A DNA stretch of 32,478 nucleotides from Acidobacteriaceae bacterium. GTDB taxonomy: Bacteria; Acidobacteriota; Terriglobia; Terriglobales; Acidobacteriaceae. The notes under the pieces were generated by a model. That model did no database searches and was not told where the DNA came from. It saw only the letters and a program-made list of their open reading frames with translations. This document shows positions 7,409-32,478 of the stretch, piece after piece (positions within the stretch are counted from its first letter, which is position 1; each line of letters opens with the position of its first letter). Both the position numbers and the translations under genes were made by a program. Location of the stretch: assembly GCA_003166855.1 (NCBI GenBank), contig PMUM01000083.1, positions 1 to 32,478 on the forward strand, in the 5' to 3' direction.

Positions 7409-7427
7409 GGTGTAATGACTCCAAAGA

Positions 7428-9359
7428 TCAAGCACCGCTGCTGTGAAGAGCGGCGAAAGGTTCGCGGATGCCGACAAAGTACGTTGAACCCAGTGAGGCC
7501 GTCAGAGATCGGCTTTCCTCAAACTCGATGGTACGAAGCAGTCGCTCCTGGTCGTGAAGTCCCTTGCGGATCACATAGGTCACTCGTTCCTCGTCGAGGT
7601 CGATTACCAGAACGCTGCCACAACGGATCGAGTGGGTCTGCCCATTGTGTTCCATCGTCTCGGTCTGCACCAGTGTGATGAACACCTGGTTGAGGGCGCG
7701 CCCATCCCCTCTCTGGCGCCGCGCCTCACGAATAGACTTGACGAAAAAGACCGGTGCGCCTCCGGAAAGCTTCACACCCGGAGGCGGCGAGAATCCAGAC
7801 AGCGCCAACCCCGTCAGTGTTTGAAGGATTAATGCCTTGATCACCTGGTTCTGTATCGCCGCGTGCAGGTCCGCCTGGATTCCCCGGCTCATACTCCATA
7901 TCGCCTCGCGGCTGGTCAGGTAACGCAATTTGTCCACGTGCGTGCGCAGGTGAATGTTCGAAATGAATAGCTTAAGCCTGTCTTCCATTTCCCCGGGAGC
8001 CAGCGTAGGATCCTCGCCCGGCCGCGTCCACCGCAGGCTGTCTTCTGAGAGCGTCCGCACATTGTTCGGATAGATTCCCCGGCGCCGGAACGCCTCGATG
8101 AACGCTACGCGGTAGCGATGCTGATCGTCGGGGAAGAGATCCATGTCAGAGGTGATGAGCGCACGCAGGTACTCACCGAAGGTCAAATCGACAGGCGGGC
8201 AGTAATCTAATGCGCGAATACATATGTTTAGGACATGGCCGGCAGATTTCGCGGCTTCCTGTGCCAATCGATTCGATAGATCGGGATGAAGTTCGCCCTG
8301 TGGAAGTACCCCAGTGCCTCCACTCGCAAGTCGGAGCAGATCACGCGACCGGTTTTGATAGATCGAAAGAAAAGCATCGAACACGGCCGCGACAAGAATG
8401 GCACCGCGCTCATGCACTTTCGTAGTACGGTCCAACTCCGCGGGATCCGGTGTCAAACGAACCCATTTCCCGATCGCCGGATCGTATTTGCCGATAGCGT
8501 CCCGCAAGGCCCCGTGCGTTCCCCGGGCATGCCCGACCTGAGCCGCCAACTGGGCCAGAAGATTTTCCGTGCGCAAGTCTCCTCGCGTCTTCGCGATCTG
8601 GTGCCTGAGCACCTCGGGGAAAGTGAAGTGCTGAAAGAGCGCCACGATATCCGCGAAGGCCTCGTGAAATGCCAAAACGTCTTGATTCGTAGGTTCCAAG
8701 AAATGTTCATGGAACCCATCGAGCAGAGCATGAGTCGTTTCGTGAGCGACGACGTCGTGGGAAAGACAAGTGAACACCATGCCGCCGGGAAACTGACCAG
8801 AGGTTCGATCCTCGGTCGCGGGAAAATAGCCGAAGAGAAGCGCTCCTTTGCGGCGACTGTAATAAGCGTTGGCCATCCGCAAAGCGTGCGGATAGATGCG
8901 TAGTCTGGGTACAAACTGATCCGTCAAGGGGGCGCCGCTTTCTCGATTATGTTGATCGGTCCAAAAAGCCTTCCGCCCCAGAGCGCGCTCGAACCGGTCG
9001 ATCGTCGTCATTGCGACCGCATAGGCCATTTGCTGATGAAACTGCGGGTTGCCTTCCGATGGTGCCAAGCCATTTTGAGCGAGGACTCGCTCATCGTTCA
9101 GATCGACAGGCGCGTAGAAGCAACCGCTCGGCGGGTCGTAGTCCACTACCTCGATGTATTCTCCGACCGGACCAGGAGAGACCTCTTCCCAGGGAATTTT
9201 GTAGGTGATCTCGCTGACCAGAGCGGTTTCGAGCTGAGTCGCCAAGGTCGGATCAAAACCGTAGCCACGCAACAAACGGTGCGTGGGCGCAAGAGGCTGC
9301 GAAGCCACGTGCCGCGCCGCCTCTGTGGTCCCCTGCTTCAGTTTGCTATTTATCGCCAT
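7428..9359 (-). CDS. Putative gluzincin-type zinc metallopeptidase
   Basis: 643 aa. DVVAHETTHALLDGFHEHFLEPTNQDVLAFHEAFADIVALFQHF: HExxH with a downstream Glu helix (HEAFAD) resembling M4-type NExxSD spacing. Confidence 0.7.
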   Translation of the reverse strand: MAINSKLKQGTTEAARHVASQPLAPTHRLLRGYGFDPTLATQLETALVSEITYKIPWEEVSPGPVGEYIEVVDYDPPSGCFYAPVDLNDERVLAQNGLAPSEGNPQFHQQMAYAVAMTTIDRFERALGRKAFWTDQHNRESGAPLTDQFVPRLRIYPHALRMANAYYSRRKGALLFGYFPATEDRTSGQFPGGMVFTCLSHDVVAHETTHALLDGFHEHFLEPTNQDVLAFHEAFADIVALFQHFTFPEVLRHQIAKTRGDLRTENLLAQLAAQVGHARGTHGALRDAIGKYDPAIGKWVRLTPDPAELDRTTKVHERGAILVAAVFDAFLSIYQNRSRDLLRLASGGTGVLPQGELHPDLSNRLAQEAAKSAGHVLNICIRALDYCPPVDLTFGEYLRALITSDMDLFPDDQHRYRVAFIEAFRRRGIYPNNVRTLSEDSLRWTRPGEDPTLAPGEMEDRLKLFISNIHLRTHVDKLRYLTSREAIWSMSRGIQADLHAAIQNQVIKALILQTLTGLALSGFSPPPGVKLSGGAPVFFVKSIREARRQRGDGRALNQVFITLVQTETMEHNGQTHSIRCGSVLVIDLDEERVTYVIRKGLHDQERLLRTIEFEESRSLTASLGSTYFVGIREPFAALHSSGA

Positions 9360-10250: not shown

Positions 10251-11081
10251 TCAGACGTGGCTGTAGCTCACCTCAACCTGGTTCCCGTCGGTTTCGATCG
10301 TGACGTGATAGTGCTCGTCGGTGCGATATGTGGGCGTGTGCGCCGAGAGAGCACTTATTACTTTGGGATCAGGGTGGCTGAACGGACGAAGATGGCTGCT
10401 GATCGCCACCTTGGTTGTTTTGGAAATGTTATTAAGCCAGGGAGTGGTCCCCGTTGCAGTAAAAGTACCGTTTGCGGATCCGTGATGAGGCACCTTGAAG
10501 AATCCGGTGTTTTTGGGAATCTGGGCGGCAACCTGCGTCCACACCGCATCGGCCTCGGCGTCGCCGGTCAATACGAAAGATAACTGCCCGAGAGTAATGG
10601 CCAACACCACAGAATTGTTGTTCTCGTTCGGCAGAATATTGCCAGGCCTGGGCCACATCACTTGCAGGGATGCAGGCCCGAACGATGGCAGAATCTTGCT
10701 CGTGTCCACTACATCGTACTGCCCGACCCTGCTCGATCGATTGGCATAGCGGAGCAAGTCGGCGAAAAATGCGGGCTGATTTGCCGGAGTCGAATACCAA
10801 AACCGCCTTGTGCCAAAGTCGCGAAGAATTTTCTTCAGTCCCTGGCCGTGATCTGCGTGGGCATGTGTCAGTAAGATCCACTCAAAGATCGGCGTAGCGG
10901 AGGGAACCGTAAGCCCCTTTTTCTCAAAGAACCGCTTCAGAAAGATGTAGGAAGAACGAAGCGTGGCGGTGTCGTTTGAATCAATCAGAGCGTAATAATC
11001 CGTGCCCGTGCTGTCTTGCGACTGCAGCAAGACAGAGTCGCCCCATCCGACGTCAATCAGGGTTGCTCGAAGTTTGCTCAT
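10251..11081 (-). CDS. Metallo-beta-lactamase-fold hydrolase, ComEC/Rec2-like (MBL-1)
   Basis: LIDVGWGDSVLLQS; ILLTHAHADHGQGL (HxHxDH); NNNSVVLAITLGQLSFVLTGDAEADA; FKVPHHGSANG. Confidence 0.9.
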   Translation of the reverse strand: MSKLRATLIDVGWGDSVLLQSQDSTGTDYYALIDSNDTATLRSSYIFLKRFFEKKGLTVPSATPIFEWILLTHAHADHGQGLKKILRDFGTRRFWYSTPANQPAFFADLLRYANRSSRVGQYDVVDTSKILPSFGPASLQVMWPRPGNILPNENNNSVVLAITLGQLSFVLTGDAEADAVWTQVAAQIPKNTGFFKVPHHGSANGTFTATGTTPWLNNISKTTKVAISSHLRPFSHPDPKVISALSAHTPTYRTDEHYHVTIETDGNQVEVSYSHV

Positions 11082-15901: not shown

Positions 15902-16966
15902 ATGCCTGATCTAGTTCATCTCGGAGTGACCGAGAATTCTCCCTCGGTTCACGTGTACGTATTCCGCGTCGGGGAAGGTCTAGGGAATGCCATCCTACTT
16001 CGTTTCCCCGATCGGACATGTGCAATTGTGGATTGGGGAACGCAGAAGGATGAGCCACTTGAGGCCGCCTTGACCATAGCGAAACAAGGACGTGTCCGCG
16101 TCGTGGCCGTTACACACGATCACGCCGATCACGCCTTGGGTTTGGTTAGGTTGCTCGAAACCTTCGTTGCGGCGGGTGTCAAGATCGATCAATTTGTGTA
16201 CCCGACATCTCAACTTCGCGACCTCGATGAGTTGTCCAAGGCCCGCGTCAAAGCTCGAGATCTGGGTATTCCGATCCACCCGGTTCACGTACGGACCAAC
16301 CCGAAAGGCGTATGGGACCCTGATTCTTTAGATTGGGAGGACGATTTTTGGGAGTTGATGGTACTGGCGCCGCTGGATACGGACGCAGCCAGCAGCGAGG
16401 TCAGGTCCTTTCAGAAGGACCAGCCCGCGGGAAATTCTACGAGTCTCGTTGTCTTGTTTGCCTTTGAGCCGGACTCTTCATCGAACATTCCGGGGCAAGG
16501 AAAAATTCTATTCACTGGTGACGCCACGGGCAGGGTGTTGAGGACTGCAGATGAAGTCGCGTCACAAAGCGGTCTTACTCTCGATAATCAGCTGCTGGTT
16601 GTTCCACATCATGGCGGCGTTAGCGTCGTTCCAGAGTGGTTGGAGCGTAACATTCATGGAATCGCCGTCATATCGGCGCGAACCAATTCGCCACACCATC
16701 CCAAACAGGCGACTCTTCAACAGTTGGCGCGTCGAACCTGCCAAGGTCAAGAGAAAAAACTCTATTGCACTTCCTATGCGCAAGCCTGTCGCAAAGAGTT
16801 TGAAGGGGAAGCCGAGGCAGACGATGTGCAACTTGTCGGCGAGGGGCCTTGTTTCGGCCACTTGGTGATTCGTGTTCCGCTGCAGGGCCGCGCAAGCTTC
16901 GAGTCGAGTTCGGCCACGGGAGAGCAGCGGCGCCGATACGGATGGTGCGGTAACCCGACGAGGTGA
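15902..16966 (+). CDS. Metallo-beta-lactamase-fold hydrolase, ComEC-like (MBL-3)
   Basis: VFRVGEGLGNAILLRFPDRTCAIVDWG; VVAVTHDHADHALGLVRLL; NSTSLVVLFAFE...KILFTGDATG; LLVVPHHGG. Confidence 0.9.
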   Translation: MPDLVHLGVTENSPSVHVYVFRVGEGLGNAILLRFPDRTCAIVDWGTQKDEPLEAALTIAKQGRVRVVAVTHDHADHALGLVRLLETFVAAGVKIDQFVYPTSQLRDLDELSKARVKARDLGIPIHPVHVRTNPKGVWDPDSLDWEDDFWELMVLAPLDTDAASSEVRSFQKDQPAGNSTSLVVLFAFEPDSSSNIPGQGKILFTGDATGRVLRTADEVASQSGLTLDNQLLVVPHHGGVSVVPEWLERNIHGIAVISARTNSPHHPKQATLQQLARRTCQGQEKKLYCTSYAQACRKEFEGEAEADDVQLVGEGPCFGHLVIRVPLQGRASFESSSATGEQRRRYGWCGNPTR

Positions 16967-18005: not shown

Positions 18006-18702
18006 CTATTTTCTGGTTTTGCGCTTTGGGCGCGATGAGCCCTCCCGCGTCGAAGCGCGCCTTTTCCAGCCGCGGAGCTTGATGGGTGCTTTCGTGGGCT
18101 GATCGCGACTGGGGCTATTGGGATAGCGGGATATTTTATGACCGGACTTCCAGAGAACTCGAAGAAAACTCTGGTCGTATTTTTTGAAGTAAGTTTCTGC
18201 TGCCCAGCGGTTGATGCTCTCGACCAATCGGCGAGCATCACCTGACGTTTTCATGCCGCTTCGCTTCGCGTCAATGATCGTCTTAACTGCATGGGTCATA
18301 GCGTCCGTCAACACTCTTAATATAAGGACCAAAAATGAAATCCGGGCCGCTCGACTTGCTGAAGGCGTGACCGATCCCGGGATAACCACAGTTACAGGAG
18401 TAGAAGATGAATGTGCAGGTTCTCGGAAGCGCATCCTCGAAGAGTGCCGCCAAGTCATGCCAGCGGATCTCCTGTTCTCGAACACAAAAACCTGTTTTGG
18501 AGTCGTGCCCGTGCGCACCGAGAATGAGAATATCGCAACCGTCGAAATTTTCGCGCAGCAGGAACTCCCGCAAAGCGTCAGCCGTCGGGATCGTCGCGAC
18601 CCGTACATCAAAATCCGCAGCCGTAAGATCCCGAATCAGTTCCTTCAACGGCTCTTCAACCACGTCGTCTTCACGGAAGCACCTCAGATAAAGAACTTTC
18701 AC
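18006..18702 (-). pseudogene. Small caspase/CHAT-like protein, apparently split by a frameshift near 18300-18345
   Basis: Frame 1 (18283..18702, GTG start): KVLYLRCF...CDILILGAHGHDSKTGF...CTFIFYSCNCGYPGIGHAF, i.e. beta-His-Gly-His and beta-Cys elements of a caspase-like dyad. Frame 2 (to 18006) then reads VLTDAMTHAVKTIIDAKRSGMKTSGDARRLVESINRWAAETYFKKYDQSFLRVLWKSGHKI..., a plausible continuation. Confidence 0.55.
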
Positions 18703-18852
18703 TCAAGCAGATCCTGTTTACTGATGCGCGGATTGTCGCACCTCGGGCGATCCGACGCAACCGCATCCGTTGAAGATGTCTCGCCGCAAAGATTCTCTCG
18801 TGGGCAAAAACCGGCGATTACCCCGCATACGTTTGTAGAGGAATGCCGATCG

Positions 18853-21800
18853 ATGCTCCGTCGCCAATGTAAGTTTGTCGCAAAGTGTTTTCTCCTATGG
18901 CTGCTCTTCTCCCTCGTCGCCAACTTTACCTGGGCACAATCCGAAACTGCGACGGTTTCCGGTCAGGTCGTGGATCCGTCAGGACTGAACATAACGGGTG
19001 CCCAGGTAAAGCTTGTAGACATTGATCGAGATACCAGCATCGGCGCAACCACCAACACTTCAGGCTTGTACACATTTCCGAGCGTTAAGCCCGGGCGCTA
19101 CAGGATGGAAGTCACAGCCGCGGGCTTCAGGGTGGTCAATGTCACGGGCGTCACGGTAAACGTCCAGGATCATCTCGAACAAAACTTCAAGCTAGTCGTG
19201 GGATCGATTTCCGAGTCGATGACGGTAACGGCGGACGCCTATAACGTGAACACGACCGATGCGACTGTCAGCACGGTCGTTGATCGGAACTTCGCGGAGA
19301 ACCTGCCGATGAATGGCAGGAGCTTTCAAGCCTTGATTCAACTAACACCTGGCGTTGTATCGATCGCTAGTACATCGCAAGACTCCGGCCAGTTCAGTGT
19401 CAACGGTCAGCGGGGCACGTCTAATTATTTTACGATTGATGGTGTCTCTGCCAACATCGGCATGTCCGCTGTTTCTGGTCAGGGGGCACTGAATAACGGC
19501 GCTGCCGGGACGCTTTCAGGGTTTAGCGTTCAAGGCGGTACTAACAGCCTGGTGTCGGTCGATGCTTTACAAGAATTTAGGATTCAAACGTCTACTTTTG
19601 CACCCGAATTTGGCCGAACTCCTGGCGCACAAGTGTCAATCGTCACTCGATCAGGGACAAACGAATTTCACGGTACACTATTTGACTATCTCCGCAATGA
19701 TGCGTTAGATGCGAATGATTGGTTTGCTAACCGCGATGGGCTGACTAAACCGCAGGAGCGTCAAAACGATTTTGGCGGAATGTTGGCTGGTCCAATAATT
19801 AAAAACCAAACCTTTTTTCTCTTTTCCTATGAAGGGCTTCGCCTGAGGCTTCCAGAGGTCGCCGAATCGGAGGTCCCTTCTCAGAGTGCAAGAGTGTCGG
19901 CGATCACAACCCTCCAGCCCTATTTCAATTCATTCCCAGTGCCAGCAGCAGGTGCCCCAGACATCAATGGCATTTCGCCTTTCAATGCGAGTTATTCGAA
20001 TCGTTCCACATTGGATGCAGTCAGCCTTCGCATAGACCAGCGGGTCAGTGACAAAGTCACTCTCTTCGGTAGGTACAACTACTCTCCCTCAGATCTGTTT
20101 CAGCGACCCCTGGGCCACTCACTGAACACTCTAGAAACATCCAAGATAGCAACGCAAACATTGACAATAGGTAGCAGCTGGAACATCTCACCCGAGCTCA
20201 GCAATGAGCTGCGACTTAACTATAGTCGTGGCAATGCCCGGGCCAACTTTGTATTGGACAATTTCGGGGGCGCGGTGCCTCTGACAGTTTCGGAACTGGG
20301 TTTCCCCACTCCGTTTGACACACCGAATTCATCTTTTGCGTTCCAGTTATTTGACGGGGTCTCGGGCCTCTACCTCGGGCAGGTCGCGCACAACGTGCAG
20401 CGACAGTGGAACGTGGTTGACGGTCTGACTTGGCAGCGGGGTTCGCACACGCTCAAGTTCGGCGTCGACTATAGACGACTGATGCCGACCAGCGCACCTC
20501 CCCAGTACGTCCAGGATGCCTTCTTTCTCAGCGTGAATGCAGCTGAGTCAGGCCAGATGTTATTTTCCATCCTGCAACAGGCTCGCGGTGCAGCGCTCCT
20601 TTTCCAAAACCTGGGTAGTTTTGCGCAGGACACGTGGCGTATTACTTCTCGCCTAACCGTGACCTACGGTCTGCGGTGGGACATCGATTCTGCACCCTCG
20701 TCGCGCAACGGCCTCAACTTGCAGGCAGTAACAAACTTTGACGACCCCTCGCAATTGGCGTTAGCGCCAGATGGCGTGCCTATTTTTGCGACTAAATTCG
20801 GGAATGTGGCGCCGCGACTTGGCATGGCCTACCAGTTCACGCAAAAACAGGGTTGGGAAACCGTGCTGCGGGCGGGCTGGGGAAAATTCTTCGACTTGGC
20901 AACAGCTGAGGTGGGAGAACTAACGAACGGTATTAGCTATCCCTTTGGCAGCACGGCGTTCCCCTGTTGCGCGTTTCCGCTCGACGCCGCCGCGGCAACG
21001 CCGCCTCCAATTTCGAGAAGTCTTCCTTTCGGGGTGTTGACCGCTTTTGATCCAAAGCTCGGGCTGCCCTATGTCCAGGAATGGAACGTCGCGTTGGAAC
21101 AGTCTTTAGGCAGGAATCAATCCGTAACGGCTTCATACATTGGTTCTGCGGGCAGGCGTCTCATAGAGACCGTCGGAATCATCTCGCCCAATCCAAACTT
21201 TGGCGAGGCTCTGCTCATATCGAACGGAGGAACATCTGACTACAATGCACTGCAAATTCAGGCGAACCGGCGGCTGTCTCACAGTTTGCAGGCGCTTGCT
21301 TCCTACACGTGGGCGCACTCAATCGACACCGGTTCCGCTTCTTCTCTTGGCCAAGCCTCCAATACATTTGATCCTCGGGCGGGCGCCCAGGCGAACCGCG
21401 GGCCCTCTGATTTCGATATTCGTCAGGCGTTTTCGGCGGGCGTAACATACGACATTCCCGTTCCCCATGTCAATGCATTGGCGAAAGCCATCCTGCGCGG
21501 CTGGTCGCTCCAGAACATCATTCTGGCTCGTTCTGCGCCACCGGTAAACGTCGACGACAGCGCATTCCAAGGCTTGTTAGGAAGCAGTTTTGCGGACGTT
21601 CGAGCCGATCTGATCCCAGGAATTCCTTCATATATTTTCGGGTCGCAGTATCCAGGCGGGAAGATACTCAACAACACGCCCAACCTGGGCGGACCTGGCT
21701 GCCTGGGACCCTATTGCCCTCCCCCCACCGATGCGAACGGTAATCCCTTGCGGCAAGGAAATCTGTCGCGAAATGCGCTCAGAGGTTTTGGCGCAACACA

Positions 21801-22062
21801 ATGGGATTTCGCAGTCCATCGCGAGTTCCCAATTCGCGAATCCCTAAAGCTTCAGTTCCGGGCAGAGATGTTTAATCTTCTTAACCATCCCAACTTCGGG
21901 AGTCCGATTGGTGACCTCAGCAATAACTCTCAGTTCGGTCAGTCCGTGCAGATGCTTGGGAGAAGCCTCGACGGCCAAAATCAGGGTGGAGGCAGTTTCA
22001 GCTCGCTCTATCAGATCGGGGGCCCGCGGTCCATCCAGCTCGCTCTCAAATTGGTGTTCTGA
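18853..22062 (+). CDS. TonB-dependent receptor, Oar/carboxypeptidase-regulatory-like type
   Basis: Likely ATG at 18853 (MLRRQCKFVAKCFLLWLLFSLVANFTWAQSE, signal peptide) inside track ORF 18211..22062. N-terminal TVSGQVVDPSGLNITGAQVKLVD...GLYTFPSVKPGRYRMEV; plug ENLPMNGRSFQALIQLTPGV; C-terminal Phe. Confidence 0.93.
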   Translation: MLRRQCKFVAKCFLLWLLFSLVANFTWAQSETATVSGQVVDPSGLNITGAQVKLVDIDRDTSIGATTNTSGLYTFPSVKPGRYRMEVTAAGFRVVNVTGVTVNVQDHLEQNFKLVVGSISESMTVTADAYNVNTTDATVSTVVDRNFAENLPMNGRSFQALIQLTPGVVSIASTSQDSGQFSVNGQRGTSNYFTIDGVSANIGMSAVSGQGALNNGAAGTLSGFSVQGGTNSLVSVDALQEFRIQTSTFAPEFGRTPGAQVSIVTRSGTNEFHGTLFDYLRNDALDANDWFANRDGLTKPQERQNDFGGMLAGPIIKNQTFFLFSYEGLRLRLPEVAESEVPSQSARVSAITTLQPYFNSFPVPAAGAPDINGISPFNASYSNRSTLDAVSLRIDQRVSDKVTLFGRYNYSPSDLFQRPLGHSLNTLETSKIATQTLTIGSSWNISPELSNELRLNYSRGNARANFVLDNFGGAVPLTVSELGFPTPFDTPNSSFAFQLFDGVSGLYLGQVAHNVQRQWNVVDGLTWQRGSHTLKFGVDYRRLMPTSAPPQYVQDAFFLSVNAAESGQMLFSILQQARGAALLFQNLGSFAQDTWRITSRLTVTYGLRWDIDSAPSSRNGLNLQAVTNFDDPSQLALAPDGVPIFATKFGNVAPRLGMAYQFTQKQGWETVLRAGWGKFFDLATAEVGELTNGISYPFGSTAFPCCAFPLDAAAATPPPISRSLPFGVLTAFDPKLGLPYVQEWNVALEQSLGRNQSVTASYIGSAGRRLIETVGIISPNPNFGEALLISNGGTSDYNALQIQANRRLSHSLQALASYTWAHSIDTGSASSLGQASNTFDPRAGAQANRGPSDFDIRQAFSAGVTYDIPVPHVNALAKAILRGWSLQNIILARSAPPVNVDDSAFQGLLGSSFADVRADLIPGIPSYIFGSQYPGGKILNNTPNLGGPGCLGPYCPPPTDANGNPLRQGNLSRNALRGFGATQWDFAVHREFPIRESLKLQFRAEMFNLLNHPNFGSPIGDLSNNSQFGQSVQMLGRSLDGQNQGGGSFSSLYQIGGPRSIQLALKLVF

Positions 22063-22065
22063 CGA

Positions 22066-24471
22066 ATGGGCATCCTGAAATCAGCTGCATCAACACCTTT
22101 GATTGATCGAGGAGTCCACCTGTTGTCGAAAATTCCTATCAGCGTCGACGAATGGCACTCCATATGGAACCAACAATTCACGATTGCGCCTCGTCTTCGG
22201 TCAGGAATTCAATCTCGGAAGATCGTGCTGTTCTTTCTTCTCGGGTTGCTACCTGTCAGAGCCTATACAGCGTCCAAGCATTGGCCAGACGCGGATCTCA
22301 CAGCAAAGCAGCCGACTAGGCGTCCGCCGACCGTGGCGGACTCAATTGGGATGACCAACCTGGGAGACCCCGAATACATTCGCGGCGGAACTTCTCGCGA
22401 CCGCGTTGCGGTGTTCTCGCCGGATGGCAGTAGATTTGTTATTGTCCTGAAAAAGGGCAATCTTGATCAAGACACAAATGAATACGCGTTATTTCAGTGG
22501 CGGACGAGCGAGATCTCTCACTCGCACGTTCCCGAGCACTTGCTGACGATGTCTTCTTCCTCGAATCGGGGAGCCATCGAGGACGTCAGATGGATGAACG
22601 ACAGCGAGACCCTCGTGTTTCTAGGGGAGAACCCGAACGAATTGCGACAGCTTTATACATTTAACGTTCGCACACGAAAACTTACGACGATTACCCGCAA
22701 TCCAACGAATCTTCTCTGTTATGGCATGACGCCGGACGGCCACAACTTCGCCTACGTAGCAAAAGAACCTCCTCGCGCCTTCTTTGATCCAAGTGCCCGA
22801 CGCCAGGGAATTGTCGTAACGACTGAATTGCTCATGGACCTATTGGCAGGGCGGAAAGGGGGTGATGCGGTGTTCGGAGGAGAGGGTCAGTTATTTATTA
22901 AAACAGGACTCGACGACGCCAGACGACTGGAAGTTCCGGGTATACCCGGATCTGAATGTGAACTTAGCATGTCTCCGAACGGAGAATACATCGTCATGCC
23001 TCTGCGGGTAGCCAAAATTCCGCAGAATTGGAAAGACTACGCGGACTCCGATGTACACGCGAGCAGTGTGAAAGAGCTGCGCGAAGGAGAGTTCTCCGAT
23101 TTGCAGAGACTAGAAATTGTTAACGCAGAGACGTCGAAGAACGAAGTGTTTTTGAACTCGCCGATCCAGGGGAAAGAGACCAGGATGGTTTGGTCTCCCG
23201 ACGGTCACTCTGTCGCCATTGGCAACGTTCTGCTGCCGCTAGATAACAGTGAGAGTAGCGAGATCACGACAAGACAATCAAAACTCTTCTCGGTGGAACT
23301 GGGTGTCCCGAGCGGCGAGATTACGATGATCACTGATGAAGAATTAAAGCTACTAAACTGGGACAAAACGACTCATCGACTAGCCTTCGAAGAACCAGGA
23401 ATCGCCTGGTACGACTCTGAGCCTGGTTCCAAAGTCTTCTTTGCCAAAGCTGGATCAAAGTGGGGCAAGATAAATGGGGAAAACTCGAAAGCGGCAGGGC
23501 CTGAGATCTTTTTGAAAGAAGACATGAATACCCCGCCGAAGATCGTCGCGATCGATCCGTTGACGCACCGGGAGGCAATGCTGCTAGACCTGAACCCACA
23601 GTTTGCTGCACTCAGATTTGGCAAGGTCGAGGAGGTCATGTGGAACTCGTCGGATGGTCATGTGGTAAAGGGTGGACTCTACTATCCAGTTGATTATGTA
23701 TCAGGAAAACGGTATCCCCTTGTGATACAGACGCATTTCTGGTCTGCGAAGAGATTTTGGATAGATGGACCTTGGACGACTGCTTTTGCAGCACAAGCAC
23801 TAGCAGGCAAAAGCATCATGGTTCTTCAAGCTGACGAGGATGTTAGCGAAATCGGCACGCCCAACGAAGCTCCTCGCGAAATCGCCTCTTTTGAGGGAGC
23901 CGTCGATTACCTCGACCAAAGAGGACTTGTCGATCGCAGTCGTGTTGGTATTATCGGGTTCAGCCGGACGTGCCTTCATGTCAAATATGCACTGACGCAT
24001 TCGGCGGTTCGCTTTGCCGCAGCTTCGGTCACAGACGGTGTGGATGGTGGGTATTTTCAATATATCCAATCGATATCGCCATCCGGGACTGCCTACACTT
24101 TGGACAGCGAAGCGATAAATGGTGGCTCGCCGTTCGGAGACAAGTTAATCAACTGGCTTGAACGTTCACCTGGATTCAACCTTGACAAGGTTCATACTCC
24201 CGTTCGCATCGTGGCCGAGAATGCCGATGTGGTCTTATTCGAGTGGGAATGGTTTGCCGGTTTATCTCGTTTGGACAAACCTGTGGAAATGATTGTGATG
24301 CAAGATGGAGAACACATCCTACAGAAGCCCTGGGAGCGAATGATCTCACAGCAGGGCAACGTGGACTGGTTTGATTTTTGGCTTAACGACGAGGAAGACC
24401 CGGATCCCGCCAAAAGCGCGCAGTACCAACGTTGGCGAAAAATGCGGGTCAAATCAGTTCGTAGGCAATGA
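22066..24471 (+). CDS. S9-family peptidase of the Atxe2-like lasso-peptide isopeptidase type
   Basis: Starts 4 nt after the receptor stop. Beta-propeller then alpha/beta hydrolase domain; nucleophile VGIIGFSRTCLHVKYALTHS; C-terminal QDGEHILQKPWERMISQQGNVDWFDFWLNDEEDPDPAKSAQYQRWRKMR. Confidence 0.8.
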   Translation: MGILKSAASTPLIDRGVHLLSKIPISVDEWHSIWNQQFTIAPRLRSGIQSRKIVLFFLLGLLPVRAYTASKHWPDADLTAKQPTRRPPTVADSIGMTNLGDPEYIRGGTSRDRVAVFSPDGSRFVIVLKKGNLDQDTNEYALFQWRTSEISHSHVPEHLLTMSSSSNRGAIEDVRWMNDSETLVFLGENPNELRQLYTFNVRTRKLTTITRNPTNLLCYGMTPDGHNFAYVAKEPPRAFFDPSARRQGIVVTTELLMDLLAGRKGGDAVFGGEGQLFIKTGLDDARRLEVPGIPGSECELSMSPNGEYIVMPLRVAKIPQNWKDYADSDVHASSVKELREGEFSDLQRLEIVNAETSKNEVFLNSPIQGKETRMVWSPDGHSVAIGNVLLPLDNSESSEITTRQSKLFSVELGVPSGEITMITDEELKLLNWDKTTHRLAFEEPGIAWYDSEPGSKVFFAKAGSKWGKINGENSKAAGPEIFLKEDMNTPPKIVAIDPLTHREAMLLDLNPQFAALRFGKVEEVMWNSSDGHVVKGGLYYPVDYVSGKRYPLVIQTHFWSAKRFWIDGPWTTAFAAQALAGKSIMVLQADEDVSEIGTPNEAPREIASFEGAVDYLDQRGLVDRSRVGIIGFSRTCLHVKYALTHSAVRFAAASVTDGVDGGYFQYIQSISPSGTAYTLDSEAINGGSPFGDKLINWLERSPGFNLDKVHTPVRIVAENADVVLFEWEWFAGLSRLDKPVEMIVMQDGEHILQKPWERMISQQGNVDWFDFWLNDEEDPDPAKSAQYQRWRKMRVKSVRRQ

Positions 24472-24530: not shown

Positions 24531-24677
24531 CTACTCATCCAGATCGTAGGCTGCTACGCTGTGGATTGCGCCCTGTGTTCCGTCAGGAACGTTCGACTTC
24601 TTCGGATTGCCTTGCATGTCGGTGATGACTGCGACGGCGTTCCCAAGGATACGAACTTCAGGTTTGCTGTATTTCAT
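24531..24677 (-). CDS. Candidate lasso-type RiPP precursor peptide (48 aa)
   Basis: MKYSKPEVRILGNAVAVITDMQGNPKKSNVPDGTQGAIHSVAAYDLDE. Strong RBS AAAGGAGG 7-8 nt upstream of ATG. YxxPxVxxxG leader motif. Directly downstream of the cyclase gene. Too short for the ORF track. Confidence 0.75.
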   Translation of the reverse strand: MKYSKPEVRILGNAVAVITDMQGNPKKSNVPDGTQGAIHSVAAYDLDE

Positions 24678-24736
24678 CGTTTTGTCCTCCTTTCTCACGG
24701 TGTTCTCACCACTTTGCTAGCGGAAGTGATGGAGAT

Positions 24737-26674
24737 CTAAAGATGCTCAATATTCGTTGCTTCTATGCCGTGGTAACTCCTTTGAAATGAGGGCGAAGCT
24801 ACAACCGGATCAATCAAGCCACGCGAGATCAAACTGCGCAGCCAAAACTCAAGCGAGATCGCCTTTAGTAGCCGTACGGTGTGTACCTTCGTTCCATTTG
24901 TGGCGGCATGTAATGTGTCCAGAAACGCCCCCTGGTTGATGTACCCGAGACTCGTGCAAATTGGCGAGTCAAAGGCGAGTAGCAACTGCTCAAAGTTGTT
25001 CGCCAAAGCGACTAGAGGCGTGCGCGCCCCAAACTGCTTGGTTCTGCGCGACAAAATTTCTCGCGGTACGATCCCCGCCAGCGAACGTCGCATTAGAGAT
25101 CTTCTCTCGCCTGGGCGAAGGATCTGGCTTGCCGGTATGGATAAGATGAACTCGATCAAATCTTGATCAAGGTACGGGTAGCGGGTCTCTTCGATCGTCA
25201 CGACGGAGGGGGTCCACTTTGCCATCTTTCTGGCGATCAGAGAGACTCCGCCGAAGTACGAGCGGCGGCTTGGCAGCCATGTGTCGAATGTCTCAGCGAC
25301 TCCAAGTTGTCTAAGGGCAAGTTGCGTTCGTACGGCAAATTTATTTTCAATCCAGTTTTCGATTGTGGCGTCTCTGGATAGGTACTGGCCGACCGAATTT
25401 GGCAGCAATCCGATGCAGGACTGCCACAAAAGTTGAAGGAATGGTTTTCGCTTGACCAAACTCCACTGGACGAGCTGTTTGGCTAGTTGGCCAAACCTGA
25501 ATTGAACGATGAGATCGGCGAGCAGCGCATGCGGGTCCGGCACGCCACCCAAGAACTCATCGCCGCCAATTCCGGACAAAACGGCTCGGTAACCTCCGTT
25601 CTGGACCACCGCTGCGCGCTCAGCGTCTAGGGCCGTTGCGGCAGCGAAATGGCCCGGGAGGGGAACGAAGTCGATGTATTCGAGAGACGCCGGACAAGTT
25701 CCTAACTGGCTGGTATCGATGTGATGTCCGATTCTTCTACGAAATCCTTCTACCTTTTGAAAATAGATCCAGTCATCTCCGTTCGGTTCCGTTTTATCGT
25801 AGAAAGACAGAGTGTCGACTCTACGCATGGCCGTGCCCGGCGCGGCAACGACGTCATCGGCCATGCAAACAATCGATGAGGAGTCCAATCCACCGCTGAG
25901 CTCCGCAAGAATCGGTGAGTCTGAACGCAACCTGCGGCGGACAGATTGGCGGAACACGTGGCGGAAGTGCTCCTCGTATTCTGTGTCCTTCTTGTAACGA
26001 ATGCGGGACTGGGTGCTGAATCGCCAATACCGTTCCTCGTGAAGTCCTCCGATGTTAATTTGCGCGAACTTTCCCGGGGGAACTTCGCGAATCTCGCGAT
26101 AGGGAGTCAGGTCGGCATCGGGATCTTGTGCGAAATATCCAGCGATGTAGTCATCGTCGATGTGGAGTGTTTCTCCCGAGAAAAGAACGAGGGGCGCGAG
26201 ATCTGTGGACCACCAGATTCGGTCCTTCCTTAGATAGTAGAAGATATGCCGGATGCCAATGTAGTCGACGGCAAGAACAAGGTCCCTCTGCAGCGGTTTC
26301 CAGACGGACATCGCCCAGTCACCGATGATTCGGCGGAAGCAGTTGGTTTCCCAGCGGTCGAAAGCGGCACCGACGATAGCGACATCGGTGGGTTCCACTT
26401 CGAGATCGCTGTGCAGATCAGCGATCAAATCATCGCGATTGTCAAGACGACCGTCCCACGTCAGGGCAAAGCCCCGCCGGGACAAAAATGGCTGCTTCTC
26501 GCGGCGCGACTCAGCCGTGGTGTAGAACGGGCGATAGAGAAGAGCGATTGACCCGTCCAGATGAAAGCGTTCACCATCAGGGCCTTGGCGCTTCATGGCC
26601 TCGCTGATGGCCGCGAGTAGTTTCCGGTCGACTATCTTGCCATCGAGATTCCAAATGCCAGCCTGGACGCTCAC
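24737..26674 (-). CDS. Lasso peptide cyclase, asparagine-synthetase-like (C protein)
   Basis: Track ORF 24737..26917; likely GTG at 26674 preceded by GAGGAG. GIWNLDGK...RGFALTWDGRLDNRDDL..., AELSGGLDSSSIVCMA (PP-loop), LSGIGGDEFLGGVPD. Confidence 0.88.
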   Translation of the reverse strand: MSVQAGIWNLDGKIVDRKLLAAISEAMKRQGPDGERFHLDGSIALLYRPFYTTAESRREKQPFLSRRGFALTWDGRLDNRDDLIADLHSDLEVEPTDVAIVGAAFDRWETNCFRRIIGDWAMSVWKPLQRDLVLAVDYIGIRHIFYYLRKDRIWWSTDLAPLVLFSGETLHIDDDYIAGYFAQDPDADLTPYREIREVPPGKFAQINIGGLHEERYWRFSTQSRIRYKKDTEYEEHFRHVFRQSVRRRLRSDSPILAELSGGLDSSSIVCMADDVVAAPGTAMRRVDTLSFYDKTEPNGDDWIYFQKVEGFRRRIGHHIDTSQLGTCPASLEYIDFVPLPGHFAAATALDAERAAVVQNGGYRAVLSGIGGDEFLGGVPDPHALLADLIVQFRFGQLAKQLVQWSLVKRKPFLQLLWQSCIGLLPNSVGQYLSRDATIENWIENKFAVRTQLALRQLGVAETFDTWLPSRRSYFGGVSLIARKMAKWTPSVVTIEETRYPYLDQDLIEFILSIPASQILRPGERRSLMRRSLAGIVPREILSRRTKQFGARTPLVALANNFEQLLLAFDSPICTSLGYINQGAFLDTLHAATNGTKVHTVRLLKAISLEFWLRSLISRGLIDPVVASPSFQRSYHGIEATNIEHL

Positions 26675-26688
26675 AGCAGTCTCCTCGC

Positions 26689-27060
26689 CTAGCAACGATC
26701 CCAAACGGCGTAGGTCGCTTGGACGTTCGAGCGCTCGTTGATCGTTCGCCCTTCGACCTCTACCCAAGCGTGAGCTTTGAAGGGCAATTTTTGGGCACCC
26801 AAGACCATGTCCGCACGAACCGCGTGCCTCCTGAGCAAATAGATAGTCACGAAGGACCGCTGTAAGCAGAGAGCTTGTTTCGGATACCAAACACAAGCGT
26901 GATTGACCGCCATGCACACACGGTCAATGATGTCCTGTTCCGCAGGCACGTTGGCAACTTTCCAACCCTTGACAGTGCTGTGCAGAACCCGAAAAGAGCA
27001 GACGGCCTGCAAAATGTCGTAGGCCAAGAGCATGAACAATGCTTGGAAGAGCAGAATCAC
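26689..27060 (-). CDS. Lasso peptide leader protease, B2 / transglutaminase-like
   Basis: CVWYPKQALCLQRSFVTIYLLRRHAVRADMVLGAQKLPFKAHAWVEVEGRTINE (Cys-His-Asn/Asp protease signature of B2). GTG 27060 overlaps the upstream stop as GTGA; the longer track ORF starts at 27171. Confidence 0.85.
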   Translation of the reverse strand: MILLFQALFMLLAYDILQAVCSFRVLHSTVKGWKVANVPAEQDIIDRVCMAVNHACVWYPKQALCLQRSFVTIYLLRRHAVRADMVLGAQKLPFKAHAWVEVEGRTINERSNVQATYAVWDRC

Positions 27061-29240
27061 AAGGACGACCTTGACTGCACATGAACTCCAATTTCGTGGC
27101 AGACAAAAGCGAGTCTGTCGGTAAGGGCCTCGATTTTCGTCGAAAAGGGCTGAATTGGTGCGTGCCCCCACGCAGGCTTGTAGTCAAGTAAAACGGGACG
27201 GCTGGAAGCAGTTGCAGCTTGCAGGCGTGCAGCCATTTTGCGCGCGTGCATCGGATTGCATCGAGTGTCTGCATCTCCTGAGATGAGCAGCGCTGCCGGA
27301 TAAGCGACCCTGTCAACGACGTGGTGGTATGGCGAGTAGGCCATTAGGCATTGAAAATCCCCTCGGTCTTCGGGCGACCCATATTCGTCAGCCCATCCGG
27401 CAGCAAAATCAAAAAGGTGATATCTCGCCATATCGAGCAACGGGCCAAGGCAGACGGCGACGCAGAAAAGCTCAGGATGCTGGGTAATCGCTGCACCGAC
27501 AAGGAGACCGGCATTGGATCCTCCGCCGATGGCGATGCGGCTGGATATCGAGCGCTGTTCTCGAATCAGCCACTCGGCCGCCGCCACAAAATCATTGAAA
27601 GAATTCTGACGGTTTTCGCGCTTGCCGGCGCGGTGCCACTGCTCGCCAAGTTCCGAGCCCCCACGTAGAGCCGGGACTGCAAGCAGAAATCCTTGCTCCA
27701 TAAGGAACGTGGCGAACACAGAGAATCGAGGTGTCACGCAACTCCCGAAGCCACCGTAGCCCGTCAGAAAGGTCGGAAGAGGACCGGAATGCAAAAGGTC
27801 CGTGCGCGCAGCAAGAAAGAGTGGAACTGAGGTCCCGTCCGTCGAGCTGTATGCAGTTTCCTCGATCGCGATTGCGCAGGGATCACTTGGGGTGTTCGCT
27901 TCATCCCAAGCCAAGACATCTTTTCGACGAGCGTCATAGCAATGAACAGCGGGCGGTTTGGAAATTGAGGTGTAGCTGTAGAACAATTTCTCCGTTGCGT
28001 TCGGTCGATTGAGCAAATTGATGGTCCCGCAGGCAGGGAAGGAAGTGGCTTCCTTCCGTGTTCCGTCCAGGCCAAAGATTTCAATCTCCGTAGAAAAAGG
28101 ATCGCTCCGAGTCACAAACACTTGATCGGCCGCGACCGCAAACTGCTGAATGTATCTATCGGACTCAGGTACGACGTCATGCCAATGATGAGGATCGGGA
28201 TCTACTGAGTCGATCCGGACGATGCGGAAGTTCGGAGCCGCGAGGTCTGTATAAGCCAGCAATTGACCACATACGAAAAACGGAACAAAGCAGCCTTCAA
28301 TTTCCCGAATTGCCAGCTTGATTTCGGTTGGCTTGGATGAAATCTCTTGTAGATAAACCGAGGCTCGAGGTGAACAGCCAGTGAAGAAGATCGTGTAAGC
28401 CAATAGCTTAGCTTCAGGAGAATGGAGAATTCCTAGAAAGAGATTCGGTTCATCGCCGGCGAAGAATATTTCCTGGTCCTGCGATCGGTCTGTGCCAAAC
28501 CCGTGCCAGAAAACGGCTCGATAGTTGGGACGGGGGTCGCGTCGTTCGCGATGGGAGTAGTAAAACCCGGAGCCGTCAGGTGCAAAGACGAATCCGGTGC
28601 AGAGGCCTTCCGGAAGGCGGTCCGGAAGCACGGCACCGCGCTCGACATCGAGGATTTCGAGAGACGAGTGATCAGTGCCGCTTTGCCGGACAGAGTACGC
28701 GAGGAGGCGACCATCCTCAGAGATCGCAGCGATAGAGACGGCGGTTGAGTTCCCGCTTCCACGCAGAGCTGGGTCGACCAGAATAGTCTCTGTTCCTAAG
28801 AACCCATCCTTCATGGCGATGACTGGCTGCTCCGCGTCCTTCTGGCGCCTAAGGAAAAAGTAACGGTCGCCGACGTTCCAAGGTTCGGAGATAACTTCCT
28901 TCAGAGCCAGCAGCTCTCTGACCTGCGTCCTAATTCGCTCTCGGTCCGGAATCGCATCGAAATACGCGCGCGTGTAGGCGGCTTGTTCTTCAAGCCACGT
29001 CCTCGTTCGAGGCGAGTTCTGATCCTCCAGCCACCGATATGGATCTGTGATCTCGACGCCGTGCAGGATTTCGATGACGGGTTCGACCGGTGTCGGCGGA
29101 GGTACAACGAATGCGTGAGCCATGTGCTTACGCTCCAGAACATTCAGGGCTACGGAGGTAGCAGCTCTAGGACCTGGGCTCGACCCCACATCTGAGCTAA
29201 GCGATGCGTGACAGTAAGTCCATAGCGGGGTCTTCTTCAA
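27057..29240 (-). CDS. Prolyl oligopeptidase (S9A family)
   Basis: PYRWLEDQNSPRTRTWLEEQ; GGFGSCVTPRFS; AIGGGSNAGLLVGA (Ser); ISGDADTRCNPMHA (Asp); WGHAP (His). Alternative start ATG 29123 (MAHAFVV). Confidence 0.92.
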   Translation of the reverse strand: MKKTPLWTYCHASLSSDVGSSPGPRAATSVALNVLERKHMAHAFVVPPPTPVEPVIEILHGVEITDPYRWLEDQNSPRTRTWLEEQAAYTRAYFDAIPDRERIRTQVRELLALKEVISEPWNVGDRYFFLRRQKDAEQPVIAMKDGFLGTETILVDPALRGSGNSTAVSIAAISEDGRLLAYSVRQSGTDHSSLEILDVERGAVLPDRLPEGLCTGFVFAPDGSGFYYSHRERRDPRPNYRAVFWHGFGTDRSQDQEIFFAGDEPNLFLGILHSPEAKLLAYTIFFTGCSPRASVYLQEISSKPTEIKLAIREIEGCFVPFFVCGQLLAYTDLAAPNFRIVRIDSVDPDPHHWHDVVPESDRYIQQFAVAADQVFVTRSDPFSTEIEIFGLDGTRKEATSFPACGTINLLNRPNATEKLFYSYTSISKPPAVHCYDARRKDVLAWDEANTPSDPCAIAIEETAYSSTDGTSVPLFLAARTDLLHSGPLPTFLTGYGGFGSCVTPRFSVFATFLMEQGFLLAVPALRGGSELGEQWHRAGKRENRQNSFNDFVAAAEWLIREQRSISSRIAIGGGSNAGLLVGAAITQHPELFCVAVCLGPLLDMARYHLFDFAAGWADEYGSPEDRGDFQCLMAYSPYHHVVDRVAYPAALLISGDADTRCNPMHARKMAARLQAATASSRPVLLDYKPAWGHAPIQPFSTKIEALTDRLAFVCHEIGVHVQSRSSL

Positions 29241-29463: not shown

Positions 29464-30106
29464 GAAACAAAGACGTCAAACTTCGCAGTTGCCAGTGGTC
29501 AGTTTCCTTAGACAGGCGCTCGGCCCCAGAACACCAGTAACATGAAACCATAACCCACGTTTCCTTTTTGAGGCCTGTGTAAGTGGTCCTATGATCGGGG
29601 CAACGCCAGTATTGGGGAAGGAGACTGTCGAGCGTCCAAGCTGTGACTGGGCAACGTGCATATTTGCCGAGGGCCGGGATGAAGTGGTGATCAGGGCCCG
29701 CATCGGAACCGGTTTATAGCGGTCGGGGTAAGCTCGCAACACAGCATCCTTGCCCAGTTCTTGGTGGCCCTCGATCTCTGGCAGAAGCATTTTGTACTTC
29801 CCGCGTGAAGGGGATTGGCGGGCGTTCTCGTTTTATTAGGTATAGGCCGACTTAGGACTCTGTTCCATTTTCCGAACAAGCCGAACATTGTTCTTGCGGG
29901 AGGCAACTCTGGTTTTACACTCAGAGGAAAATAGGTTATTTCTTGCATTGGTGAAAATGGCACTCTATTTGGAATGCTCTACGCGGATCTTTTGAGAGGT
30001 ATGAACAGGGTCACATAGTAGTGGTCGATTGAGCGCTCAGCGATACGCTGCTGATTGGATTCTTCGCCGAGCCACCGTCAAATCCGTCACGACGGGAGTA
30101 GTAGTC

Positions 30107-30877
30107 ATGACCAGTCCGGGAGGTTGGCTCAGAGAGCGCCGCGAGGAACTCCACCTTTCGCGTAGTGGCGTTGAGCGCCTTCCGAGTGAGTCGGCAAGCG
30201 AAGCTGCGAACGCGCGCTATCGCATCCGACGTGGCCGCCTCGCCGACCTTGAGGAAGACAGGGGCGCACCGAACATTTTTGAGGCAGCAAGTATTAGCGA
30301 GTGCTACAAAGTTCCCTATCTTGCCGTATTGCAAGCCTTCAACCTGAAAGTGGGCGAGTCTCGGAGCACGTCGGAAAGCCCCTCGATATCCCACGAGCTT
30401 TTGCTTTCAAAGCAATGGTCCTTCTCTGACGCGGATCGCCCCTTTTCGCTGACATTTCAAAGCAACGTCAGTTTTGAAGCCACCCGCCTGGTTACGGAGA
30501 GCGCGGAGGAATTGGGCGTTCCCGCGGTCGTGCGCCGGCGCTTGGATGTGGGCCATTTCCGGCTGGGCATAATCGGCCTAAACGACGATACCATGGGCGA
30601 ACTGGTCCCGGCCGGTTCGGTGGTGGTCATCGACAACTCTCATAACACGGTTGAGATGGGTGACTGGAAAAGCATCCGGGAACGGCCCATCTATTTCGTG
30701 TGGCATGAGAATGGCTTCAGTTGCTCTTGGTGCTACATGGCGCGGGAAACGTTGTTTATCGTGCCCTATCCGACTTCACACCAGCCGGTAATGATTTTCA
30801 AGATACCCCGCGCAGCGTCGATTATCGGCCGAGTTATTCACGTTTGGCCGCCTCTCATCATCCAGAGGCCAGGTTGA
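30107..30877 (+). CDS. HTH regulator with S24/LexA-like C-terminal domain
   Basis: Likely ATG 30107 (MTSPGGWLRERREELHLSRSGVERL...). C-terminal DTMGELVPAGSVVVIDNSHNTVEMGDW...RPIYFVWHENGFSCSWCYM...KIPRAASIIGRVIHVWPPL resembles S24-like domains. Confidence 0.7.
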   Translation: MTSPGGWLRERREELHLSRSGVERLPSESASEAANARYRIRRGRLADLEEDRGAPNIFEAASISECYKVPYLAVLQAFNLKVGESRSTSESPSISHELLLSKQWSFSDADRPFSLTFQSNVSFEATRLVTESAEELGVPAVVRRRLDVGHFRLGIIGLNDDTMGELVPAGSVVVIDNSHNTVEMGDWKSIRERPIYFVWHENGFSCSWCYMARETLFIVPYPTSHQPVMIFKIPRAASIIGRVIHVWPPLIIQRPG

Positions 30878-30907
30878 AAAACCCGCGCACAGCCCCGGGC
30901 TAGCGGG
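30877..30907 (-). terminator. Probable intrinsic terminator of the pqqD-like gene
   Basis: On the minus strand CCCGC-TAGCCCGGGGCTGTGC-GCGGG followed by TTTTT; the TAG stop of the pqqD-like ORF lies within it. Confidence 0.5.
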
Positions 30908-31262
30908 CTGATGATCGCTCCTTCCGGCGCGGTAACATTCTGGAGAACCAAGATCTCTTGGGCACGGGTTGACCCGGTCGATGAATCAAATGCTTGGCTT
31001 CCAGTGCGGCAACGAATTCGGTTGCGTCCGAGAGAAGCTGAGATCGGGATACGGAGAATTCCTGTCCCAGGGCATCCGCAATCTGATCGAGGGAACATCT
31101 CTTCTTCAATAACTCCCAGATTCGGAGCCCGACTGGGTTGAGACTGAAGCAGATGCCTTGTTCAACATCCAGGAGCACTGCGCCATCTTCCGAGGCAGTC
31201 TCTCGGACACCTGGTGCGATGGTGAAGTCTGTGATCATTGCTGGGCCGCTCATGTTTGCCAC
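30900..31262 (-). CDS. PqqD-family RiPP recognition element protein (lasso B1)
   Basis: AVLLDVEQGICFSLNPVGLRIWELLKKRCSLDQIADALGQEFSVSRSQLLSDATEFVAALEAKHLI: PqqD signature. Confidence 0.88.
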   Translation of the reverse strand: MANMSGPAMITDFTIAPGVRETASEDGAVLLDVEQGICFSLNPVGLRIWELLKKRCSLDQIADALGQEFSVSRSQLLSDATEFVAALEAKHLIHRPGQPVPKRSWFSRMLPRRKERSSAR

Positions 31263-31652: not shown

Positions 31653-32478
31653 ATGTCGGGGCAGAATGGCCAATCCCTGTCTTCTTCCGTGAGCTGGATT
31701 GTCCGCTACCTTCGTCCCCTCTCGTCACTAGTGATCGCGGACCTTGTATGCATGATTGTGGGCAGTGGCCTCTCGTTACTCGATCCGCTGGTCGTAAAGT
31801 GGCTGATTGATATTGCTCTCCCGAAGCGTGACCTCCACCTCGTCCTGTTGGGCACATTGGTCTTTTGTGCGGTGTACCTGGCGAGCCTGGGGACCAACTA
31901 CCTGGCGTCGTTCGTGAGCTGTCTGCTCACGCAAAAGATGGTATTCCGGATCCGAGTCTCACTGCTACGCCAGATCCACGCGCTGCCTGCACACCGTCAC
32001 GAAAAGTCACAAGTGGGAGATACGCTCTATCGCATAGAGCAAGATGTCGACCGCGTGGCCGAACTGAGCGGAGACATTCTTCCCTTAACCATTCAGATGG
32101 TGCTCATGGGAATCATGGTGTTGATGACCATGGGAATTCTGAATTGGCATCTGACGGCGATCGTTGCCCCGATGTTGCCGATCTTCTACCTCTTGCAGCG
32201 CCGCTATGCGGCGAAATTAAAGGACGCGGCGGACCAGGTTCAAAGTCAGTCAGGGAAAATCAATGCATTTCTGCAGGAACACTTGGCAGGCATGATGCAG
32301 TTGCAACTGCTCAACCGCACCGGCACGCAAGCCAGGAAATTTGCTCGTCTTGCGGCGAAGGGAGCGCAGCTTCAGGTTCAACAGCGAGCCACGGAAATGG
32401 CCTTTGGCGGGGCATCTGTGTCGGTCATCGTCCTTGGTATGGGTCTGATCCTCGGCTACGGTGGGTATGAAGTAACTC
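31653..32478 (+). CDS. ABC transporter, transmembrane domain (exporter), truncated by window end
   Basis: Open frame from ATG 31653: MSGQNGQSLSSSVSWIVRYLRPLSSLVIADLVCMIVGSGLSLLDPLVVKWLIDIALPKRDLHLVLLG...HRHEKSQVGDTLYRIEQDVDRVAELSGDILPL. ABC_membrane pattern; no stop before the window end, so absent from the ORF track. Confidence 0.88.
   Translation, partial: MSGQNGQSLSSSVSWIVRYLRPLSSLVIADLVCMIVGSGLSLLDPLVVKWLIDIALPKRDLHLVLLGTLVFCAVYLASLGTNYLASFVSCLLTQKMVFRIRVSLLRQIHALPAHRHEKSQVGDTLYRIEQDVDRVAELSGDILPLTIQMVLMGIMVLMTMGILNWHLTAIVAPMLPIFYLLQRRYAAKLKDAADQVQSQSGKINAFLQEHLAGMMQLQLLNRTGTQARKFARLAAKGAQLQVQQRATEMAFGGASVSVIVLGMGLILGYGGYEVT

Follow-up and report, generated by a model that had tools for sequence, protein, structure and literature searches.

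A lasso-type precursor gene in an acidobacterial split-B cluster and a Lys-to-acceptor register that may reflect side-chain ring closure

The window considered here, the whole 32,478-nucleotide stretch of contig PMUM01000083.1 from an Acidobacteriaceae bacterium, contains a cluster of split-B genes resembling those of lasso peptide pathways. On the minus strand the gene order is B1, a prolyl-oligopeptidase-like protein (POP), B2, C and precursor A; an AtxE2-like isopeptidase and a TonB-dependent receptor are encoded on the plus strand, in convergent orientation to A. The B1/B2 and C maturation genes thus adjoin a precursor, as expected of a lasso cluster, and the isopeptidase and receptor are the pair expected of an isopeptidase cluster. 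The principal features are as follows.

18211..22062, plus strand: TonB-dependent receptor (PF25183, E 1.5e-151; PF13620)
22066..24471, plus strand: AtxE2-like lasso isopeptidase (NF033523, E 1.1e-51)
24531..24677, minus strand: precursor A gene, 48 aa, MKYSKPEVRILGNAVAVITDMQGNPKKSNVPDGTQGAIHSVAAYDLDE
24686..24693, minus strand: Shine-Dalgarno sequence AAAGGAGG, 8 nt upstream of the precursor ATG
24737..26674, minus strand: macrolactam synthetase C, asparagine-synthetase-like (Pfam PF00733, E 3.4e-35)
26689..27171, minus strand: B2 leader peptidase (NF033537, 69.3 bits against a cut-off of 33)
27057..29240, minus strand: prolyl-oligopeptidase-like peptidase, POP (PF02897 and PF00326)
30900..31262, minus strand: B1 leader-binding protein, PqqD/RRE (PF05402, E 1.9e-18)
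31653..32478, plus strand: start of a 612-aa ORF that runs past the window, divergent from B1

C matches the NCBIfam lasso cyclase model NF033535 with E 2.4e-85, under the model cut-off, and its GTG start is inferred from alignment; B1 is also below the cut-offs of the lasso PqqD models. Residues C102 and H134 of B2 are invariant, and the true start of this gene is probably near 27063, where the domain begins. The POP, with a probable start at 29123, is closest to the Myxococcus prolyl endopeptidase 2bkl (E 5e-119), and its matches also include the macrocyclising peptidases PCY1 and OphP. The isopeptidase does not reach the cut-off of NF033523 (176 bits against 400); Ser and His are aligned with those of AtxE2 (5txc, E 1.7e-27). 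The receptor start at 18211 is a mechanical ORF start, the domains beginning near 18950, and the 612-aa ORF reads by eye as an ABC-transporter-like membrane protein. The kinase or phosphotransferase that is a criterion of the lasso group of Duan et al. 2023 is absent from the window and from its two nearest relatives, L068 and L110. Between 29240 and 30900, where relatives have the phosphotransferase, the window has a plus-strand ORF (30029-30877) of no clear family. Elsewhere in the window, proteins at 5846-7477 and 10251-11081 gave weak PADLOC matches to LmuA and RTasMBL (E about 1e-12, and 1e-6 to 1e-8) and are probably metallo-beta-lactamase-fold hydrolases; the ORF at 15902-16966 looks similar to them.

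The preliminary description had proposed an unannotated minus-strand ORF for the 48-mer at 24531-24677, with a strong Shine-Dalgarno and a start 59 nt from the cyclase stop, and each of these points was borne out: the coordinates are exact, the start codon is the ATG at 24677, AAAGGAGG lies 8 nt from it, and the 59-nt separation is correct. The window has 473 ORFs of 35-60 aa counted from start to stop; 7 have a strong Shine-Dalgarno, 5 begin with YxxPx[LVIM], and the precursor ORF alone combines the two. The 48-mer has a single match in its own genome and no match to NCBIfam or Pfam models, which is consistent with its having been missed by annotation.

The same cluster layout recurs across Acidobacteriota. 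Contigs of relatives were found with a cyclase alignment as query, a single cyclase sequence having given no matches against genome contigs. Past C, at over 50 acidobacterial loci, comes a small ORF, as a rule no more than about 150 nt away but in some cases at 0.5-1.6 kb. Its Shine-Dalgarno is almost always strong (in most relatives the same AAAGGAGG), its leader has the form YxKPE[VLI]xxxGxAxxx[I/V]Q, and its C-terminus reads, for example, AYEADE, AYQADE or AYDLDE (28, 8 and 7, respectively, among 68 cores); several clusters have two or three precursor copies. Because the relatives carry this post-C ORF with the same leader, the same acidic C-terminus and a Shine-Dalgarno that is almost always strong, the 48-aa ORF is confirmed, as far as comparison of sequences can do so, as a genuine lasso-type precursor and not a chance ORF, and it belongs to a large lasso-type family so far found only in Acidobacteriota. 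The further proposal, in which the neighbouring B1/B2/C machinery acts on this precursor as its substrate, is likewise strongly supported by synteny and by the conserved leader and C-terminus in many acidobacterial clusters. It would have been refuted by a lack of conservation at orthologous loci, which the comparable ORFs at more than 50 loci rule out, or by a different small ORF always lying beside the cyclase, which was also examined and did not refute it.

Between B1 and POP/B2, most relatives also encode a protein of about 460 aa that contains a phosphotransferase domain of the APH type. Within the 57 K-type clusters, POP is present in 29, the phosphotransferase in 41 and an AtxE2-like isopeptidase in 51, and ten have neither POP nor phosphotransferase; their shared enzymes are B1, B2 and C. 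Two tandem C genes were seen in clusters L031, L036, L056-L058 and L060-L063, the PP-loop reading LSGGRDSS in the first, whose GGDE loop is of the usual form, and LSGG[ML]DSS in the second, whose GGDE region is mostly altered; the accompanying precursors have GYADWE-like ends and mostly a Lys-acceptor spacing of +8. One genome of the window's genus (G003, clusters L029-L043) has eight lasso B2 genes, with Lys-type clusters mixed among canonical fused-B clusters.

Within the precursor, the following elements can be assigned by comparison with relatives and with the published leader positions of Bradymonas BsfA, where Tyr is at -17, Pro at -14, Leu at -12 and Ile at -2 (PMC10368454).

24621..24677, minus strand: leader, residues 1-19 (alignment with relatives and the BsfA positions)
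24534..24620, minus strand: predicted core, residues 20-48, DMQGNPKKSNVPDGTQGAIHSVAAYDLDE (inferred cut after residue 19)
24600..24602, minus strand: K26 (core K7), predicted ring residue and nucleophile (Lys-Asp/Glu spacing rule in relatives)
24582..24584, minus strand: D32 (core D13), predicted macrolactam acceptor, +6 from K26
24534..24551, minus strand: C-terminal motif AYDLDE, family AY[EDQ]xDE (C-termini of relatives)

On the BsfA scale Y3, P6, V8 and I18 fall at -17, -14, -12 and -2, so that the YxxPxL-type leader is present in the window (Y3, P6, V8), as it is in the relatives, whose leaders follow YxKPE[VLI]xxx(G)xAxxx[I/V][Q/x]. The preliminary description had taken T19 for the Thr of a YxxPxLxxxGx5T motif, an assignment that could not be sustained: T19 is at -1 and is not conserved, the residue there in relatives being mostly Gln, with Ile or Val before it at -2. 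The window leader lacks the Thr usual at -2 of lasso leaders, having I18 in its place, and this does not exclude the lasso class, given the known exception in Bradymonas. Ile/Val at -2 in Acidobacteriaceae was already noted in 2023 by Duan et al. (PMC10368454), and the window precursor meets this criterion of their group. With I18 at -2, as Ile is in BsfA, the leader would be expected to be cut after T19, a cleavage point that remains inferred.

A core beginning at residue 20 has no Asp or Glu at positions 7-9, where a lasso acceptor is looked for, the first candidate being D13; most K-type relatives also have none there on the BsfA scale, and in the discovery set their acceptors fall at core 9-17. 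What the cores do share, when aligned on the first suitable Lys, is that this Lys (1-8 residues into the core over 67 distinct cores of the type, 3-9 residues past the leader end in the discovery set) is followed by Asp or Glu at +6, +7 or +8 (in 34, 19 and 6 discovery cores). This arrangement is found in 59 of 60 distinct discovery cores, as compared with 25.5 +/- 5.3% when residues are shuffled within cores (maximum 45%, 5000 permutations). The one core that does not conform, L100, is from a canonical Gly1-Asp8 cluster outside the K-type clade. The variance of the acceptor position in the discovery set is 3.57, against 0.45 for the Lys-acceptor spacing, and over 67 distinct K-type cores the spacing is nearly fixed whereas the distance from cleavage site to Lys varies. 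The 60 cores in which the pattern was first tested are also those in which it was discovered, and sequences related by descent do not count as independent cases. The outcome is unchanged after thinning at 60% identity (53 cores, 98%), and the rule is kept in eight of eight distinct K-type precursors from genomes not used for discovery, fetched later by another route (L110, two from L112, L113, L116, L119 from Edaphobacter aggregans DSM 19364, L121 from Granulicella sp. L60, and L123).

From this register it is proposed that the adjacent split-B cluster makes a lasso-type peptide with a K26-D32 ring, closed most simply through the Lys side-chain amine, a reading that is judged to stand evenly balanced between right and wrong. 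B1 would bind the leader through Y3, P6 and V8, B2 would cut after I18-T19 (after IQ in relatives), and C would activate the D32 side chain and join D32 to K26 as a macrolactam, so that the ring would link two side chains and leave the N-terminal tail free. The 16-residue C-terminal segment ending in AYDLDE may then thread the ring. For a cut after T19, the dehydrated side-chain product would have a monoisotopic mass of 3038.404 Da ([M+3H]3+ 1013.809). Threading is assumed from the presence of the isopeptidase, by analogy with characterised systems, in which this enzyme acts on threaded lassos or threaded isopeptide rings (PMC9266682). A similar analogy, to isopeptidase clusters, underlies the inferred biological role, in which the peptide would leave the cell, be taken back by the TonB-dependent receptor and then be opened by the isopeptidase.

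The Lys side chain is the simplest nucleophile because the distance from cut to Lys varies while the Lys-acceptor spacing is nearly fixed. By arithmetic, a Lys side-chain ring with Asp at spacing s would contain 3s+8 atoms, or 26 at +6 and 29 at +7, near the 25 and 28 atoms of canonical 8- and 9-residue rings. A B2 cut after IQ followed by side-chain attack is also suggested by the absence of any cleavage specificity around Lys (residues just before it show no preference in the discovery set, and Pro directly follows it in 6 of 52) and by the fixed distance of IQ from the B1-binding motif in relatives. Since K-type clusters share B1, B2 and C, and ten are without POP and phosphotransferase, the use of Lys should come from C. 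Against the side-chain reading, about 60% of K-type cores start with Gly or Ser after IQ, which could mean that the N-terminal amine still matters; against the proposal as a whole, a product has been seen from no K-type cluster, and the window, without the phosphotransferase usual in relatives, could hold a partly decayed cluster. No report of a Lys side chain as nucleophile of a known lasso cyclase was found in the lasso literature covered.

The K-type cyclases are also related by descent. In a quick tree of 92 cyclases, made without bootstraps, all 57 K-type members fall in one branch (SH-aLRT 99) together with six others (L072, L076, L078, L082, L085 and L029) that form one nested clade with the acceptor at core 8 or 9. 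The nested clade is mostly Gly1, L029 having Ser1 with Glu7/Asp9, and Gly1 is enriched in it (7/8 vs 23/67, Fisher p 0.006). The canonical register, with the acceptor at 8 after IQ, is seen in sister clades, whose clusters have a fused B1-B2 or another layout. It is a possibility, held just short of an even chance, that this acidobacterial clade of asparagine-synthetase-like lasso cyclases closes its ring by a Lys side chain and leaves a free N-terminal tail, with one nested switch back to the N-terminus. K-type cyclases share a loop after GGDE, GGDExxGGVPxPxPEL (residues 371-386); its GGVPxPxPEL part is modified in the switched clade, and other cyclases lack it. As a putative marker of the Lys register this loop is suggestive only, since the tree has a single switch and the association is confounded by common descent.

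The alternative that survives best is that an N-terminal extension is trimmed by B2, POP or a housekeeping peptidase and that the Lys alpha-amine then becomes ring residue 1. Spacings of 6, 7 and 8 would correspond to rings of 7, 8 and 9, exactly the known range; clusters with POP have longer extensions (median Lys position 5 vs 3, p 0.003); and K26 of the window precursor would be exposed by cleavage after proline P25. However, the residue before Lys shows no preference, no trimming enzyme is common to all K-type clusters, two-cyclase clusters without POP likewise have long extensions, and 7-residue rings would be the commonest whereas canonical sister-clade relatives use 8. Trimming to Lys with alpha-amine closure, for which a window peptide starting at K26 would have a mass of 2396.161 Da, is considered unlikely, but cannot be excluded. 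It is improbable, though some evidence could be so read, that the Lys-acceptor motif serves only for recognition and that the product of C is non-threaded or carries a different modification; the AY[EDQ]xDE C-terminus is also strongly conserved, so that some conserved residues clearly serve recognition, and the NCBIfam lasso cyclase cut-offs are not reached. A spacing that flexes over three consecutive values is, however, exactly what a ring size would do, and the isopeptidase retained in 51 of 57 clusters is of a kind that acts on threaded isopeptide rings (PMC9266682).

Ordinary N-terminal chemistry elsewhere in the precursor, either a 13-residue D20-D32 ring or a Thr(-2)-style core GAIHSVAAYDLDE from G36, would agree with the N-terminal amines used by all lasso cyclases in the literature covered, and T34 does sit at -2 of G36. 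It is nonetheless given little chance: neither ring size lies within 7-9, relatives would require rings of 8 to 17, T34 and G36 are not conserved, and the leader positions put the cut after residue 19. That the window cluster is decaying and makes no product, as the missing phosphotransferase between B1 and POP might suggest, is scarcely credible when L068 and L110 likewise lack it with A, B1, POP, B2 and C intact, the window genes are all open, and the precursor obeys the family rule.

Three other accounts of the Lys were tried and rejected. POP is not the source of the register, as clusters without it obey the rule too; an oligopeptidase-B-like cut after Lys does not suit a prolyl-endopeptidase relative, and Pro often follows Lys; and a link to the phosphotransferase fails with its absence from the window and other K-type clusters.

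Several known systems resemble the window cluster in part. The Bradymonas sediminis bsf cluster (PMC10368454) has a split B1/B2, a YxxPxL leader and Ile at -2, but in BsfA the cut is immediately followed by a core with Gly1 and Asp8, and the cluster includes a kinase, whereas the window has its acceptor at core 13, no kinase and a Lys-anchored register. Group II lasso clusters from soil metagenomes (PMC12670498; see also PMC9064862), with split B and an intervening prolyl-oligopeptidase gene, are probably of the same kind as the window cluster, although ordinary cores were predicted for them and the text describes no Lys motif (PMC12670498). In 2025, soil clusters of similar layout from which the peptidase genes were omitted gave no detectable product in E. 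coli (PMC12670498). Astexin and sphingopyxin (AtxE2) clusters also have an isopeptidase and a TonB-dependent receptor beside the lasso genes, but they are proteobacterial with A-C-B order, fused B, Thr(-2) and an N-terminal ring, whereas in the window A comes after C and the isopeptidase gene runs towards A. Macrolactams of a Lys side chain with Asp or Glu also occur in graspetides (microviridins), where ATP-grasp ligases make them. The Lys-to-Asp/Glu linkage would be shared with the window, which differs in having an asparagine-synthetase-like cyclase with B1/B2. No published description of the Lys register was found, subscription papers, preprints and figure content being outside coverage, and in a June 2026 review (PMC13352647) the words lysine and Acidobacter are both absent.

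The novelty lies in a register anchored on Lys throughout an entire cyclase clade, which departs from N-terminal ring closure in a way that can be tested. Lasso peptides in the literature covered all close the ring from the N-terminal amine, so that leader removal defines the ring; a Lys-anchored ring, if true, would separate the two, would allow N-terminal tags or extensions, and would explain why acidobacterial clusters are hard to predict and express. Cores in this phylum, which is widespread in soil, could be predicted by the simple rule of a Lys followed by Asp or Glu at +6 to +8, and the switch inside the clade means that the choice of nucleophile can be mapped in the cyclase.
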